Shown: positions 7,339-20,373 of the stretch, one piece after another
Numbering within the stretch: position 1 is the first letter of the stretch
How the letters are laid out: every line of letters begins with the position of its first letter
From: Phenylobacterium zucineum
GTDB taxonomy: Bacteria; Pseudomonadota; Alphaproteobacteria; Caulobacterales; Caulobacteraceae
DNA length: 42,669 nt
Direction: 5' to 3'
Assembly (NCBI GenBank): GCA_002221445.1
Contig: NMUI01000013.1
Location: 1 to 42,669 of the forward strand
The notes under the pieces: model-generated
Databases searched by the model: none
Told to the model about the DNA's origin: nothing
What the model saw: only the letters and a program-made list of their open reading frames with translations
Position numbers and translations under genes: made by a program

Positions 7339-7601
7339 TGCGGTGCGAGAAGTGTGGCGAAGACTCTGTTGTCAAAGACAGTCGCCATCACCTCAGCAAA
7401 CACAATCGAGCCTCGGCTTGCGAGCCGGGGTTCATATACCGCCGACGCCAATGCTTGAAGTGCGGTCACAAGTGGAGCACCGTCGAGATGCACGTCAACC
7501 GAATGGATGACTATGACCTCGAGACGGAACGTGATCGACTCAAGCAAAGGCTGAAGGCTCTCCGTCATCACATCTTGGAACTTGAAAGGATCACCAGATG
7601 A
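7335..7601 (+). CDS. NrdR-like zinc-ribbon protein lacking an ATP-cone
   Basis: MRCEKCGEDSVVKDSR...RRRQCLKCGHKWSTVEMHV resembles the NrdR N-terminal zinc ribbon; the remainder is coiled-coil-like. Confidence 0.7.
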   Translation: MMRCEKCGEDSVVKDSRHHLSKHNRASACEPGFIYRRRQCLKCGHKWSTVEMHVNRMDDYDLETERDRLKQRLKALRHHILELERITR

Positions 7602-8239
7602 AAGTCGAACTTGTGGCTATCACCAAGCCCACAGTCGCTGACATGCCGCCGGGCGTCTTCGTCGCCTATGCTGCTCGCGTCAGCAATCCCACGAACCAGC
7701 ACAACCACGAGACCTCGCCCAAGCTGCTTAAGTATCTGCAGCAGCACAAGCACTGGTCCCCGTTCGAGATGGCTCATGCCGTCCTGAAGATCGAGACCAC
7801 ACGGGACATTGCTCGGCAGATACTGCGGCACCGCTCGTTCTCCTTTCAGGAGTTCTCCCAGCGCTACGCCAAGGTGGACAACTTCGAGCTGTCGCGAGCG
7901 CGGCGTCAGGATACGAAGAACCGGCAGAACTCGATTGATGACCTCGACGTGAGCCTTCAGCGGGACTGGACGGCGAACCAGCAAGCGGTCATCGCTCACG
8001 CCCAGGAGGTCTATGAGCAGGCGCTCGCCGCGGGTGTCGCCAAGGAATGCGCTCGCAAGGTTCTGCCGGAAGGGCTGACGATCAGCACCCTCTTCATGGC
8101 CGGCACGTTCCGCTCGTGGCTCCATTATCTCGAGCAGCGATGCGACGAGTCCACACAGCTCGAGCACCGCGAGGTGGCGATTGCTGTCCGCGACGTTCTC
8201 GCCCATCACGTTCCGGAGGTCTTCGGTCATGAAGAGTAA
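7598..8239 (+). CDS. thyX: FAD-dependent thymidylate synthase
   Basis: ThyX signature RHRSFSFQEFSQRY; HWSPFEMAHAVLKIET. Confidence 0.96.
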   Translation: MKVELVAITKPTVADMPPGVFVAYAARVSNPTNQHNHETSPKLLKYLQQHKHWSPFEMAHAVLKIETTRDIARQILRHRSFSFQEFSQRYAKVDNFELSRARRQDTKNRQNSIDDLDVSLQRDWTANQQAVIAHAQEVYEQALAAGVAKECARKVLPEGLTISTLFMAGTFRSWLHYLEQRCDESTQLEHREVAIAVRDVLAHHVPEVFGHEE

Positions 8240-13979: not shown

Positions 13980-14062
13980 TTGAGGAATACCCCCGTTGAC
14001 TGAAGTGTGCCAGCAGTATTATGTCGTAATTCATGACAGCGCAACTCGAAAGGTCTCAATCA

Positions 14063-14548
14063 ATGGCAATAATCGTTGAAGGAATTGACAACTCAGGTAA
14101 GTCCACACTCGCACGTCTCATTGCAAAGCGTCTCGGACTGTTACTTGTCGAAAGCGAAGGGCCGCCGAAATATCCCGGAGAAATGAATGCGCGGGTTGAG
14201 CGGTACTTCTCGATGCCGGGCCCCTTGTTGTTCGTCCGTCACCCCTGCGTCAGCCAGGTGATTTACGGTAAGCTCCGCGGGGAGGAGGACTCAATCAGCG
14301 CCGACCTCGTTCGGGAGTTCTACAATCAGCAGCACCTGTTCATCTATTGCGACCCGCTCGGACGCGGACTCGAAGGTCATGTGGTCAAGGATGAACACGA
14401 CTCGCCGGCACACCTGAAAGCCATCGAGGACAAGTATAGCAACCTGCTCGCCATGTATCGGGACTGGGCAATCAATCGCGCCCATATGTTCTACCGCATC
14501 GGCGACTCTATGGACCGGGTGGTGAAGGCATGTTCGACCGTCGCATGA
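14063..14548 (+). CDS. Deoxynucleotide/thymidylate kinase-like P-loop protein
   Basis: MAIIVEGIDNSGKSTLARLIAKRLGL; start could also be 14033. Confidence 0.75.
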   Translation: MAIIVEGIDNSGKSTLARLIAKRLGLLLVESEGPPKYPGEMNARVERYFSMPGPLLFVRHPCVSQVIYGKLRGEEDSISADLVREFYNQQHLFIYCDPLGRGLEGHVVKDEHDSPAHLKAIEDKYSNLLAMYRDWAINRAHMFYRIGDSMDRVVKACSTVA

Positions 14549-14877
14549 TGACCGCTATCCGAAACCCGAACATGCTTGTTCCGTGGTTTCTCATGGCTGC
14601 CTACGCCTACGAGCAGCTTGATAGCCCCATCATCAGCGACGGCGCATGGGATGACTTGTGCAATCGTCTAAAGCAAGAGTGGAAGACGATACGCCACAGG
14701 CACAAATGGATTATTGATCGTCATCAGCTCTCGACTGGGACGGCCAGTTATCTAAGGAAGAGCGACTACCCCGGAATGGCCGTTGGGGCTGTTCAATCAT
14801 TGATAGGAGAGATGCAAGATGCACAAGCAGCCAAACGACAGAAGCGCCGAGCCCGTCGACTTCGTCGGCGACATTGA
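14530..14877 (+). CDS. DNA ligase LigA-related small protein
   Basis: YEQLDSPIISDGAWDDLCNRLKQEW resembles the N-terminal helix of NAD-dependent DNA ligases. Confidence 0.6.
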   Translation: MFDRRMMTAIRNPNMLVPWFLMAAYAYEQLDSPIISDGAWDDLCNRLKQEWKTIRHRHKWIIDRHQLSTGTASYLRKSDYPGMAVGAVQSLIGEMQDAQAAKRQKRRARRLRRRH

Positions 14878-15313
14878 AGAGTTCCACAGCAAGTTCGGTC
14901 TGTTCTACGATGGCAAACCGCGTATGCTCCCGACGGAGCTCGCGGATTTTCGGCAGAAGTTCTTGCAGGAGGAGAAGAACGAATACGTCCTCCACACCGA
15001 AGCCTGCACCATCGCCGTTCACGAACGCGACGAAGCCGAGGTGACGCATCAACTCGCTCAAATGCTCGACGGACTTGTGGACCTGGTCTATGTTGCCGTC
15101 GGCACCGCACATCTCCACGGCTTCGACTTCCGTGAAGCGTGGCGTCGAGTTCATGCCGCCAACATGGCGAAGGTTCGAGCTCAGCGAGCTGAGGACTCGA
15201 AACGCGGAACAACCTATGACGTGGTGAAACCCGACGGCTGGCTGCCCCCGCGGCACGAAGACCTCGTGGAGGATCACGTTCACCAGCTCCTCGCTGTGGC
15301 TGCCAGCGAGTAG
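14819..15313 (+). CDS. MazG-like / PRA-PH family nucleotide pyrophosphohydrolase
   Basis: DIEEFHSKFG...EEKNEY...AQMLDGLVDLVYVAVGTAHLHGFDFREAWRRVHAANMAKV. Confidence 0.8.
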   Translation: MHKQPNDRSAEPVDFVGDIEEFHSKFGLFYDGKPRMLPTELADFRQKFLQEEKNEYVLHTEACTIAVHERDEAEVTHQLAQMLDGLVDLVYVAVGTAHLHGFDFREAWRRVHAANMAKVRAQRAEDSKRGTTYDVVKPDGWLPPRHEDLVEDHVHQLLAVAASE

Positions 15314-15382: not shown

Positions 15383-16207
15383 ATGAAAGCTGAATGGATC
15401 AATCACTGCCTCGCGTTATCTCGACGCAAAGCCGACTTCTATAGCGGGTGTCGCAAAATCCTTCGAGTGAGAACACTCACCTTCGAGGACTGGTATGACG
15501 ATGAGCATGGCGCTCTTCGCCTTGAGGATGCGGGCTATACCAAGAGCAAAATGAAATACCTTGAGCGGGGCTACCTTCACGAAGAGTCTCGGGCCGTCGC
15601 CGTTCAGCTGTGGGATCGTCGCCGGCAACAGGCCAAGTATGGCAGTGTTGGTTTCACCTGCTACAATCACTTTATCAAGAACGATCCCGAGAAGAAGTCG
15701 AAGCGCGCAAGCGTCATGGGCCCCTGCGTTCAATCGGTGACGCTCACCTGGCTCAACAAGACCGAGGTCGCGGTGGACGTATTCTATCGCACAACCGAGC
15801 TGCTCAAGAAGTTCCCGGCGGACTTGGTGTTTCTCCGTGACGTTCTCCTCGAGCCCTTCAACTTCGACGGAATGGAAATTCGCGAGGTGAATTGTCACTT
15901 CGCCAATATCACCATCCATCCCATGTACTTTGTCACCATCCTGCCGCTGATCGAAGACCCGATTGAAGAACTCGAAAAGATTAAGAAGGCGGATAAGTAC
16001 TTCTTCGACTGGGTGGTGAAGTGGACTGCACGATACATCTGCCCCGAATACCACAGGGGCATTGCCAAGTTTGCTCAAGCGATGCGCGTCCACAAGGACG
16101 CCATGTCAAGAATAAAGGCTGATGACCTGGCAAGGCTTCAGTCTTATCTTCGGGACAATCATCCCGGTTACCGCAACGACTATGAAGAGGAAGATGACGA
16201 TGAATAA
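15383..16207 (+). CDS. Divergent thymidylate synthase (ThyA)-fold protein, paralog 1
   Basis: GPCVQSVTLTWLNKTEVAVDVFYRTTELLKKFPADLVFLRD and CHFANITIHPMYFVTI align by eye to ThyA PC / RSxD / HxY regions and to the adjacent gene. Confidence 0.55.
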   Translation: MKAEWINHCLALSRRKADFYSGCRKILRVRTLTFEDWYDDEHGALRLEDAGYTKSKMKYLERGYLHEESRAVAVQLWDRRRQQAKYGSVGFTCYNHFIKNDPEKKSKRASVMGPCVQSVTLTWLNKTEVAVDVFYRTTELLKKFPADLVFLRDVLLEPFNFDGMEIREVNCHFANITIHPMYFVTILPLIEDPIEELEKIKKADKYFFDWVVKWTARYICPEYHRGIAKFAQAMRVHKDAMSRIKADDLARLQSYLRDNHPGYRNDYEEEDDDE

Positions 16208-17051
16208 ATTCGACAACTTTGCTGCCGCCATCGACGCAGCCCAACATGACCTGTGCCACAACGCTGAGCTCGTTCACACCGAGAAGTGGCAGGGCATTGA
16301 CATATCGAAGAAGCCCGAAGCGGCGATGCACGAGTTCCGCTACTTCGGTATGGAGGTGCCCATGCCGACCGAAGAGCTCGGTTACTATCGTGAGTTCATC
16401 GAGCCCAACCTGCCCTGGGCGGACGATCACTTCCTCGAGCGTGTATGTGGTGAGCCGCTCAACCCGGGCGTCCAATGGGCGAAGTGGCCGTGGGGGCAAT
16501 CGGCGGCAAAGTTCCGCGACGAGAACAGCCAGTTCAATCACAATTACATGGAACGCTACTGGCCGCGGTATGCCGGTCTTACCGACAAGGGCGAGCTGAG
16601 CGGAACGATGTTCGATCCTGATCCCAACCACCGGCCGCTCGATCCCGTCAACGAACTGGGACACCGCGGCATTCGCTATCGCTACGGCGACTTGAACGAT
16701 CTGCTCGAGCAGCTGCGCATCGAGCCCCTCACGCGCCAGGCCTACATGCCGATCTTCTTCCCGGAAGACACCGGCGTTGCCAACCCGGATCGCAAGCCGT
16801 GCACTCTCGGCTATTTCTTCATGATGCGCAACAATCGACTGGACGTGACCTACTACATTCGGTCTTGCGACTTCGTGCGGCATTTCCGCGATGACATTTA
16901 CATGACCGTCCGCCTGGTCATCTGGATGCTCGAGCGATTGCGCGAGAAGGACGAGCGCTGGAATGACGTGAAGCCTGGCCTGTTCCGAATGGACATTGGC
17001 AGCCTTCACCTGTTCCGGAATGACTATATCAAGCTCTTCGGACAAAGCTGA
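16200..17051 (+). CDS. Thymidylate synthase-fold protein (deoxypyrimidine methylase/hydroxymethylase-like), paralog 2
   Basis: RQAYMPIFFPEDTG, RKPCTLGYFFMMRNNRLDVTYYIRSCDFVRHFRDDI, PGLFRMDIGSLHLFRNDY. Likely start MNKFDN at about 16200. Confidence 0.8.
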   Translation: MNKFDNFAAAIDAAQHDLCHNAELVHTEKWQGIDISKKPEAAMHEFRYFGMEVPMPTEELGYYREFIEPNLPWADDHFLERVCGEPLNPGVQWAKWPWGQSAAKFRDENSQFNHNYMERYWPRYAGLTDKGELSGTMFDPDPNHRPLDPVNELGHRGIRYRYGDLNDLLEQLRIEPLTRQAYMPIFFPEDTGVANPDRKPCTLGYFFMMRNNRLDVTYYIRSCDFVRHFRDDIYMTVRLVIWMLERLREKDERWNDVKPGLFRMDIGSLHLFRNDYIKLFGQS

Positions 17052-17224: not shown

Positions 17225-17418
17225 GCGCCTACTTGAACAGCCTTTGGGAAGAGGGCACCGTCGAAGACCTGCGCATTCGGGTTAAGAAGCTCCGTGACGA
17301 GCTTGGCGACTCCACCCCGGTGGATGAGACCTGGGACCGTCGAACGCTCTTCAATGAGCTCGTGAAGCTGTTTAATCAGTCCCGTCCCAAGGTCACCAGA
17401 GAATTGGAGACCAAGTGA
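17221..17418 (+). CDS. Hypothetical protein
   Basis: MSAYLNSLWEEGTVEDLRIRVKKLRDELG; GGAGG SD. Confidence 0.6.
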   Translation: MSAYLNSLWEEGTVEDLRIRVKKLRDELGDSTPVDETWDRRTLFNELVKLFNQSRPKVTRELETK

Positions 17419-17882
17419 TGAGGATCACCCGCCAGCAGATGTTCATGGAAATAGCCCACACAGTCGCCAAGCGCTCGACGTGCTTCCGACTGAATGTGGG
17501 CTCAGTGGTAGTCATCAACAATCGGATTGTGAGCATCGGCTACAACGGGCGTCCGGCCGGTCAACCACACTGCGAGGGCAATGATTGCCCGGGACGTGAC
17601 GGGTGCCACGAAACGATCCACGCCGAGGACAACGCGCTTCGCCACGTGCCGAGCGAGCTGAAGTGCGAGTCCTGTGACGTCTACGTGACGGACAGCCCTT
17701 GCCAAGGATGCGCCGAGAAGCTGATTGCCAGCAACGTGCGGCGGGTGTTCTTCGGCAAGCCCTATCGTATCACGGAGTCGCTCGACTGGCTCATGGAACG
17801 TGGCGTTGAGGTCTACCAGGTCACGCCGGCCGGGTATGTCATCGACTGGAAGACCCGGAGGATTGTCGATGTTGCGCCGTGA
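17415..17882 (+). CDS. dCMP deaminase (ComEB-like)
   Basis: TIHAEDNALRHV and DSPCQGCAEKLIASNVRRVFF zinc-dependent deaminase motifs. Confidence 0.93.
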   Translation: MMRITRQQMFMEIAHTVAKRSTCFRLNVGSVVVINNRIVSIGYNGRPAGQPHCEGNDCPGRDGCHETIHAEDNALRHVPSELKCESCDVYVTDSPCQGCAEKLIASNVRRVFFGKPYRITESLDWLMERGVEVYQVTPAGYVIDWKTRRIVDVAP

Positions 17883-20373
17883 TCCCAAGTGCACACTTTG
17901 CAAGCTACATTCCACAGCCAAGACCGTGTGCTTGCTTGGCACTGGCCCCTCGCGTTGTGACGTGATGGTGATCGGCGAAGCGCCCGGGCGATATGAGGAC
18001 GAGAAGGGCCAAGCGTTCGTAGGACAAGCCGGACGATTGTTGACCGACTCCCTTGAGCGCGCTGGGATCAATCGCGAGGACTGCTACATCACCAACGCCG
18101 TGAACTGCCGGCCTCCCGACAACCGCACACCGACCAAGGCCGAGATACGAGCTTGCAAGAAGTGGCTCGAGTATCAGATTGCAATGGTCAAGCCCAAGTA
18201 CGTTCTCCTGCTTGGTAACGTCCCGTTGCTTGCTGCGCTTGGAACCACAGGTATTCGCAAGGCTCGAGGCAAGCCCGTCGAGAAGGATGGGATCATTTAC
18301 CTTCCGACCTATCATCCGGCCTATATCCTTCGTGAACCGGGACAGGCGGCCATCTTTGAGTTGGACCTGGCGACATTTCACAAGATCATTGACTTCGGCG
18401 GCATTCCCGAAGAGCGTGAACTCGACTACATCATTGTGGACAACGATCAGCGCTTCGAGGCCATGCTCAAGGACCTGAGGGGCGCGGTGTCAAGCGACCT
18501 TGAGACTACGGGGCTCTACCCGTGGGCTGAAGGTTCTCGGATCGTCAGCATAGGCTTCGGCACCCCGCGTCATCAGTGGATCATTCCGGGCGAGACAACG
18601 AGTCAATGGACACGCAAGCAGCTCGAGGAAATGGTCGAGCGCATCACCGAGCGATTAGATGGCTGCTACCTCGTCGGGCACAACTGGAAGTTCGACGCGC
18701 TGTGGATGCGCGTTCGCTTCGGTGTTGAGTGGGTGGCACAGTTCGACACCATGCTTGCTCACTTCCTGCTGGACGAAAACGATCAGCATGGCTTGAAATA
18801 CTTGGCGCAGAAGTTCTTGGGCGCTCCCGACTGGGACGTGAGTAAAGACGTCAAGATGGGTTGGTCCCCCAAGATGGCCAAGTACCACGCTCACGACTTG
18901 TTCTATACGCTTCGGCTCAAGCAATACTTTGCCAAGCGTCTTGCCCTTGATCCTGAAGTCAAGCGCGTGTTTGAGAAGATCATGATGCCCTGCGTTGAGC
19001 TCTTCACCAACGCCGAGTTCCGCGGGGTATACATCGACACGCCCAAGATGGACGAGGCCGAGGCCTACCTGCGCAACGAGCTCGAGACGGCTCGCAAGGA
19101 ACTCGTCAAGTGGGGACCGGACATTAACTGGCGTTCGGCCAAGCAGGTTGCTGAACTGCTGTTCGACAGACTCGAGATTGAAGTCATCGAGATGACGAAG
19201 GGCGGCGGACGATCAGTCAGCGAGTCGGTCATCAAACGCATCGACCATCCGGTGGCCTCGGCCATGCTCAAGTACCGAGCTGCCGACAAGCAGCTGTCTT
19301 CGTTCATTGAAGGGTGGAAGCCGTTCCTCGTCAACTCGCGCCTCCACCCGTCATTCAAGCTTCATGGCACAGTCACAGGCCGGTTGTCATGTGAGCACCC
19401 GAACCTCCAGCAGGTTCCTCGCGACAAACGCATCCGGTCGCTTATCACCGCACCGCCCGGCTGGACGTTGCTCGAGTGCGACCTGTCACAGATTGAATTG
19501 CGCATCGCCGCCGAGCTGTCCGGCGAGCGCAATATGATCTACGCCTTCACTCACGGGATTGACGTTCACTGGCTTACCGCCATCCGCGAGATTGCTCGAG
19601 GCGGCGGTCTTGTTCATGAGGTGATGACCACAGCCAAGAAATACATCGAGCTGAAGCAGGGCGCAGTCACCTACATCACCAAGAACAAGGTTGACGCATC
19701 GAAGCTCAATTATGGCGATGCCATCCAAATCATGCTCGAGATGGGACCTGACAACGCCGCATCACTGCTCGAGGATTGGAAGGAACTTCGCAAGAAAGCC
19801 AAGGCGGTGAACTTCGGCTACCTCTACGGCATGTGGTGGAAGAAGTTCAAGATATACGCTCGCGACAACTACGGCGTGAACGTGAGCGACGAACAGGCCG
19901 CCGACTCACGCAAGGCCTTCTTCGAGAACTATCCCGACCTACCGGCGTGGCATGATCGTCAACGCAAGTTTGTTCGTGCTGAGGGGTATGTCAGGACGCT
20001 CTCTGGGCGCAAGCGTCGGTTGCCTCAAGCAATGTCACGCGACAACACCCTGGAGCGACAGGAAGCTGAGCGCCAGGCCATCAACTCGCCGGTGCAGTCA
20101 TTCGCCAATGAGCTCAACCTCATGGCGGCGCTTCAAGTTCGCGAGGAGTATCCGCGCAACGTGCTTCACATTGTCGGCACCGTTCATGACGCTATCCTCT
20201 TCGAGGTGCGAGACGATTATGTGGAGCGCGTCACACGTCGAGTTCTTGAGGTCATGAGTGGCCCCCGCCTGCTCAAGGACTTCGAGATTGAAATGTCTGT
20301 GCCGATTGAGGCAGAGGCGAAAATTGGCCCGTGGGGATCAGGAAAGGACTTGCACAAATGGCTATCTCAGTAA
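17869..20373 (+). CDS. Fusion: family 4-type uracil-DNA glycosylase domain plus DNA polymerase I (family A, with 3'-5' exonuclease)
   Basis: UDG: GEAPGRYEDEKGQAFVGQAGRLL, NAVNCRPPDNRTP, HPAYILR, Cys set. Exo: SDLETTGL. Pol: CDLSQIELRIAAELSG, KAVNFGYLYGM, VGTVHDAILFEV. Confidence 0.93.
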   Translation: MLRRDPKCTLCKLHSTAKTVCLLGTGPSRCDVMVIGEAPGRYEDEKGQAFVGQAGRLLTDSLERAGINREDCYITNAVNCRPPDNRTPTKAEIRACKKWLEYQIAMVKPKYVLLLGNVPLLAALGTTGIRKARGKPVEKDGIIYLPTYHPAYILREPGQAAIFELDLATFHKIIDFGGIPEERELDYIIVDNDQRFEAMLKDLRGAVSSDLETTGLYPWAEGSRIVSIGFGTPRHQWIIPGETTSQWTRKQLEEMVERITERLDGCYLVGHNWKFDALWMRVRFGVEWVAQFDTMLAHFLLDENDQHGLKYLAQKFLGAPDWDVSKDVKMGWSPKMAKYHAHDLFYTLRLKQYFAKRLALDPEVKRVFEKIMMPCVELFTNAEFRGVYIDTPKMDEAEAYLRNELETARKELVKWGPDINWRSAKQVAELLFDRLEIEVIEMTKGGGRSVSESVIKRIDHPVASAMLKYRAADKQLSSFIEGWKPFLVNSRLHPSFKLHGTVTGRLSCEHPNLQQVPRDKRIRSLITAPPGWTLLECDLSQIELRIAAELSGERNMIYAFTHGIDVHWLTAIREIARGGGLVHEVMTTAKKYIELKQGAVTYITKNKVDASKLNYGDAIQIMLEMGPDNAASLLEDWKELRKKAKAVNFGYLYGMWWKKFKIYARDNYGVNVSDEQAADSRKAFFENYPDLPAWHDRQRKFVRAEGYVRTLSGRKRRLPQAMSRDNTLERQEAERQAINSPVQSFANELNLMAALQVREEYPRNVLHIVGTVHDAILFEVRDDYVERVTRRVLEVMSGPRLLKDFEIEMSVPIEAEAKIGPWGSGKDLHKWLSQ

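Follow-up and report, generated by a model that had tools for sequence, protein, structure and literature searches.

Bacteriophage T4 gp1, gp56, gp42 and cd function as a kinase, a dCTP-removing hydrolase, a dCMP hydroxymethylase and a dCMP deaminase, respectively. In the thymidylate synthase (TS) superfamily, to which dCMP hydroxymethylases belong, an Asp at position 177 is an established determinant for cytosine (PMC8670742, PMC5175136, PMC6400193). In contigs of cytosine-modified phages identified by MetaGPA, a TS domain carrying Asp177 co-occurs with PRA-PH and dCMP deaminase domains (PMC8670742). DNA of phage AXL3 was cut by 2 of 37 enzymes tested, both of which have A/T-only recognition sites (PMC7504290).

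The window examined here is the whole 42,669-nucleotide stretch of DNA (IMG/VR contig IMGVR_UViG_3300020811_000108), and its portal, terminase, tape measure and tail genes mark it as a tailed phage. The original prediction had singled out two tandem genes from 15383 to 17051 as encoding a pair of ThyA-fold proteins alongside a separate ThyX. Both open reading frames are present at these positions, and we refer to their products as P1 and P2. The relevant genes are as follows.

7598-8239, + strand: ThyX, FAD-dependent thymidylate synthase (TIGR02170 1.8e-44, PF02511 1.3e-38)
14033-14548, + strand: P-loop dNMP-kinase-like protein (phrog_761 thymidylate kinase 3e-12)
14819-15313, + strand: MazG-like/PRA-PH nucleotide pyrophosphohydrolase (PF01503 1.6e-9, phrog_671 3e-21)
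15383-16207, + strand: P1, predicted diverged TS-fold protein, 274 aa, ATG start (AlphaFold2, Foldseek, profiles)
16200-17051, + strand: P2, putative TS-superfamily enzyme of dCMP-binding type, 283 aa (phrog_160, AlphaFold2, Foldseek, PDB profile matches)
17415-17882, + strand: dCMP deaminase (PF00383 2e-22, phrog_174 2e-49)
17869-20373 (start approximate), + strand: family A DNA polymerase (PolA) with an N-terminal UDG-superfamily domain (PF00476 5e-77, PF03167 5e-35)

The most likely start of P2 is the ATG at 16200, with 16194 possible, rather than the ORF start at 16122; given the start at 16200, the 3' end of P1 and the 5' end of P2 overlap by 8 bp. ThyX at 7598, the MazG-like protein at 14819 (PRA-PH match 2e-9) and the dCMP deaminase at 17415 had all been correctly anticipated. 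The kinase-like protein that had been placed at 14063 is a thymidylate-kinase-like P-loop protein, but its match is weak. A small protein encoded at 14530-14877 matches the N-terminal NAD+-binding domain of DNA ligases (PF22745 1e-7). The window yielded no recognisable glycosyltransferase or other tailoring gene, although many of its ORFs lack an assignment.

Predicted fold and active-site residues

Searches of Pfam, NCBIfam and PHROG linked P1 to no function-named family; NCBIfam returned XerD only (0.032, far below the cut-off) and PHROG a weak match to a family of unknown function. No PDB chain was matched by sequence, whether the query was the single sequence or a profile. An AlphaFold2 model of P1 was based on 64 homologues (pLDDT 90.1, pTM 0.87). 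With this model, the first match in the PDB by Foldseek was the phage dCMP hydroxylase AfhB (9iqu; E 3.9e-6, TM 0.51/0.62), thymidylate synthases followed, and the TS superfamily accounted for all of the best 50 of the 292 matches at E <= 0.001. Foldseek comparison with the viral structure library BFVD also gave the TS fold. TM-scores against solved structures were modest (0.3-0.6), and P1 would therefore be a strongly diverged branch of this fold.

Profile alignment places Y64, C115, R136, E139 and D147 of P1, each invariant in 64/64 homologues, opposite Y94, C146, R166, D169 and N177 of E. coli TS, so that an Asp occupies TS position 177 in every P1 homologue. P1 aligned with the TS-family profile in the catalytic register, at P = 1.8e-4 for local and 4e-6 for global alignment. 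Diverged P1 homologues taken as a separate, independent set scored P = 2e-4, and reversed-profile controls P = 0.33-0.58. Most actinophage P1 proteins, at < 20% identity, keep the Cys, Arg and Asp. Profile alignment also indicates that P1 lacks the folate segment of TS, and an equivalent of TS Arg126'/Arg127' is missing from the Ser88 region. On the predicted model, P1 is a TS-fold protein, and it constitutes a previously unrecognised second TS-fold family.

P2 is recognizable from sequence as a distant member of the superfamily (PF00303 9e-5, below the curated cut-off; phrog_160 1e-24). With its AlphaFold2 model (pLDDT 90.6, pTM 0.90) as query, Foldseek ranked MilA first in the PDB (9e-12) and AfhB seventh, and the P2 profile matched AfhB (4e-7, over the C-terminal half), MilA (5e-7) and T4 dCMP hydroxymethylase (6e-5). 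The ThyA fold proposed for both proteins is thus borne out in predicted models with pLDDT of about 90.

Conservation over P2 homologues shows that Y116, R179, C201, R221, S222, D224, D232 and H270 are kept, the equivalents of TS Y94, R126', C146, R166, S167, D169, Asp177 and H207. C201 and R221 are each present in 86/86 homologues, the RQ motif (R179/Q180) is invariant, and D232, at the position equivalent to TS 177, is Asp in 86/86. R179 and Ser222 are of the Arg126' plus Ser167 type, which fits a deoxyribose substrate (PMC5175136). The spacing from the catalytic Cys to the Arg is 21 residues in P1 and 20 in both P2 and E. coli TS, and that from the Arg to the residue at position 177 is 11 in all three. 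At C-3 from the catalytic Cys, P2 has Arg198 in 86/86 homologues; this position is Glu in AfhB-type enzymes, Leu in ThyA, and Asp in the sequences of T4 dCMP hydroxymethylase, MilA, AXL3 gp28, CampHawk and CBA120. The putative counterpart of TS Glu58, assigned by a profile alignment anchored on Trp61/Trp73, is residue 70 of P2, which is Asn in 79, Asp in 6 and Glu in 1 of the 86 homologues.

The two proteins had originally been related to one another through an alignment made by eye. Direct BLASTP of P1 against P2 gave nothing (E = 1.0), and that alignment is therefore not detectable pairwise. Profile comparison recovered the same register (P = 8e-4), but a larger alignment gave P = 0.019; as the signal weakens in this way, the case rests on the comparison of P1 with the TS family and on structure. 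The HxY region claimed for the pair was found in P2 as H270-x-F272 (His in 86/86, Phe in 84/86) but does not hold for P1, where H179 is present in 33/64.

Gene order, distribution and P2 without P1

Among 57 P1-bearing loci with enough flanking sequence, the order kinase-MazG-P1-P2-dCMP deaminase-PolA is near-constant, and the dCMP deaminase is found in 57/57, the kinase in 56/57, PolA in 56/57, a Cas4-like nuclease in 55/57 and the MazG-like protein in 41/57. Of 88 distinct loci, 72 have P1 upstream of P2, and in 46 of these 72 the genes are within 20 bp; they overlap or abut, many through 4-bp ATGA overlaps. No natural P1-P2 fusion was present among the surveyed ORFs. In loci L007 and L009, P1 is located ~4 kb away from P2, and L009 has the order P2-kinase-MazG-P1-dCMP deaminase.

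Additional copies occur in some loci. L033 (6451-7979) has two tandem P1 genes ahead of P2, each with the full conserved set. A third, short P1-like protein of about 175-230 aa, with the C...R...E...D pattern kept, is encoded downstream of P2 in L013 (8768-9313), L044 (phage Lebethron, 8914-9438), L077, L084 and L103; these short proteins match the P1 profile with P = 4.5e-10. In L026 (7809-8504), an extra P2-like copy adjoins a complete P2; its catalytic Cys and its equivalent of Asp177 are gone, but the RQ motif is retained.

Two P1 queries retrieved 18 and 85 (about 103) sequenced phage records from separate host groups and the P2 query retrieved 107 (E <= 1e-5). Counts for P1 and P2 agree by genus (Gordonia 68/68, Mycobacterium 9/9, Serratia 6/6, Streptomyces 4/4), and phages of Pseudomonas are also among the carriers. 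P1-P2 corresponds to gp47-gp46 of the therapeutic mycobacteriophage Muddy (L137, 8977-10646), whose DNA may carry modified cytosine. The 9g-like Serratia phage Serbin (L042) has the pair and reportedly lacks the 7-deazaguanine cluster that its relatives carry (PMC6509536), possibly reflecting a swap of one DNA modification for another. Searches of the open-licence literature found neither an account of P1 nor a virion-DNA measurement for any P1-P2 phage, and no modified-base measurement for Muddy, Emalyn/GTE2, Serbin, PMBT14 or P744.

Every P1 that was found had a P2 with it. P2, by contrast, occurred without P1 in 15 distinct contigs, in which P1 was absent from the whole record; P2 therefore does not always need P1. 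On the P2 tree, the absence of P1 requires three changes. In two of the three P1-less clades, all ten contigs (L016, L024, L025, L030, L062, L079, L104, L109, L110 and L116) encode a PF00145 C5-cytosine-methyltransferase-like (Dcm-like) protein, most with a Cys-rich tail, and in L110 (4893-6011) this protein lies between MazG and P2, where P1 is otherwise encoded. PF00145 gave no match in any of the 39 P1-bearing records searched. The ten contigs also encode an asparagine-synthase-like amidotransferase (9/10) and an N4/N6 methyltransferase (6/10), and linkage of P2 to the kinase and PolA is mostly lost in P1-less contigs. As it rests on about two independent events, the interchange of P1 and a Dcm-like protein is a lead and not proof.

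Proposed pathway and rival readings

We consider it probable that cytosine is modified before replication and that P1 and P2 carry out the committed chemistry, in one step or more. From predicted folds, conserved residues, gene linkage and co-occurrence, we infer that dCMP is the substrate, that P1 and P2 cooperate and that the product is incorporated into DNA. P2 would bind dCMP and Cys201 would attack C6, with Asp232 recognizing and protonating the cytosine ring so that C5 becomes open to a substituent. P1, as a much-reduced TS-fold protein, may form a hetero-oligomer with P2 or may act on the same substrate in the step that follows. The kinase, a likely analogue of T4 gp1 acting on modified dCMP, would raise the product towards the triphosphate; the MazG-like hydrolase, a likely analogue of T4 gp56, would remove ordinary dCTP; dCMP deaminase and ThyX would provide dTMP; and the modified nucleotide would be inserted by the family A polymerase. 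Gene context supports the earlier proposal of a modified-pyrimidine pathway separate from ThyX, and Asp at position 177 (86/86 P2, 64/64 P1) narrows the pyrimidine to cytosine. The 5-hydroxymethylation offered as an example cannot be assumed, given Arg198 and Asn70 of P2 and the missing folate segment of P1. The leading candidates for the C5 group are 5-hydroxymethyl and 5-hydroxy.

It is barely credible that P1 is not a TS homologue and that its likeness in motif and model is coincidental. Such a coincidence would fit the failure of sequence and even profile to match PDB chains and the low range of TM-scores, but it is opposed by the confidence of the model (pLDDT 90), the superfamily's hold on the best 50 of 292 PDB matches, the agreement of BFVD and the match of two separate P1 profiles to TS in the catalytic register, for which reversed controls fail. 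Ordinary thymidylate supply, with P2 as a diverged TS, is very unlikely. This is how P2 is annotated in the databases for many genomes, the TS gene of Gordonia phage Azira has been described in terms of thymine synthesis (PMC10353413), and dCMP deaminase and kinase neighbours would fit dTMP synthesis too. However, P2 has Asp and not Asn at position 177 throughout, matches the TS family only weakly and has no TS Glu58, and the presence of ThyX in the same window means that a second dTMP enzyme is not needed. With Asp177 in both proteins and thymine supplied by ThyX, 'thymidylate synthase' is a doubtful and probably wrong label for P2. Residues thus disfavour both dTMP synthesis by P2 and a 'dead partner' role for P1; the catalytic/non-catalytic pair raised in the original prediction loses ground because P1 keeps the pyrimidine-activating residues, its Cys, Arg, Asp and Tyr being invariant.

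Two successive reactions, in which a P2 homodimer makes a C5-substituted dCMP and a P1 homodimer converts this further (e.g. by hydroxylation or oxidation), are plausible, if somewhat short of probable. The complete pyrimidine-activating set in both proteins and the identity of the closest solved fold of P1, a phage dCMP hydroxylase, argue for this division, as does the presence of a C5-methyltransferase-like protein in two P2 clades from which P1 is absent; the occurrence of P2 without P1 and never the converse, as expected of a downstream step, mildly favours it. Nevertheless, P1 is without Arg126'/Arg127', the residues that bind phosphate in trans in TS homodimers, and the downstream dependence is read purely from presence and absence. 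In an obligate P1-P2 heterodimer, also foreseen originally, the subunits would complete each other's active site, as happens in TS dimers, with P2 giving R179/Q180 to the P1 site. This arrangement, which we advance only tentatively, is in keeping with the overlapping or abutting genes and with an RQ motif invariant in P2 and absent from P1, and is mildly favoured by the L026 copy, whose loss of Cys and Asp but not RQ would suit a trans-acting subunit; it sits poorly with the 15 contigs that have P2 without P1 and with the ~4 kb separation in L007 and L009. A T4-like synthesis of 5-hydroxymethyl-dCMP by P2, with P1 as an accessory or regulatory protein, is possible but rather doubtful. The layout mirrors gp1-gp56-gp42-cd, MilA, a CMP hydroxymethylase, heads the structural matches of P2, and P2 has Asp177, but an invariant Arg198 replaces the water-activating C-3 Asp present in every hydroxymethylase compared, the Glu58 position is Asn/Asp, and P1 conserves catalytic residues.

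Cytosine modification by P1-P2 phages is likely. If our reading is right, these phages probably carry a modified cytosine, with consequences for restriction, CRISPR editing, sequencing and the choice of therapeutic phages. P1, annotated as a 'hypothetical protein' beside a 'thymidylate synthase' in ~100 phages, now has a predicted fold and a role that can be tested. The active-site pattern is unlike that of characterized enzymes. Asp177, a C-3 Arg and the lack of Glu58, together with what looks like the replacement of P1 by a Dcm-like protein, point to chemistry outside that of the known hydroxymethylases. A more speculative possibility is that P1-P2 forms a two-component TS-superfamily enzyme with unprecedented dCMP C5 chemistry, in which both subunits activate the pyrimidine and neither has the folate Glu, placing a new or unexpected cytosine base in the DNA of ~100 phages, Muddy among them, and that an unrelated Dcm-family protein does the job of P1 in other P2 phages.

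Comparison with characterized enzymes and gene sets

E. coli ThyA (PF00303) shares the fold, Tyr94, Cys146, Arg166 and Asp169 with the pair. It differs in having Asn177, replaced by Asp in both P1 and P2, in having the Glu58 that P2 lacks, and in having the folate segment and Arg126'/127' that are missing from P1. The TS of the MetaGPA contigs was found through PF00303, and no P1-like partner is described in the available part of that report (PMC8670742). AXL3 resembles this locus in its set of kinase, pyrophosphatase, TS with Asp177, dCMP deaminase and ThyX, and its restriction pattern makes modified cytosine plausible, though indirectly. We rejected AXL3 as a P1-P2 phage, as gp28, a TS of more canonical type with Asp177, lies outside the P2 family and P1 is absent.

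T4 gp42 (PDB 1b49/6a9b) has the TS fold, the catalytic Cys and Asp at 177, and kinase, dCTP-removing hydrolase and dCMP deaminase functions surround P1-P2 as they do in the T4 set. Unlike gp42, P2 has Arg for Asp145 at C-3 and Asn/Asp at the Glu60 position; the locus further differs from T4 in its second TS-fold protein and in having PolA and ThyX where T4 has its own enzymes. MilA (CMP 5-hydroxymethylase, PDB 5jnh) has the Cys and the cytosine Asp of P2, but Lys133'/Ala176 for ribose and an Asp at C-3, where P2 has the deoxyribose-type Arg179/Ser222 and Arg198. AfhB, the 5-hodCMP synthase of Mosigvirus (PDB 9iqu, 9iqc; RB69p048), is flavin-dependent according to its PDB entry title. In contrast to P1-P2 it acts as one protein, its C-3 residue is Glu and it has an equivalent of Glu58, and its sequence resembles P1 in the motif region (P = 0.017), with nothing detectable beyond. 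It nonetheless shares the TS fold and Asp177, and is both the top solved-structure match of P1 and the top PDB profile match of P2.
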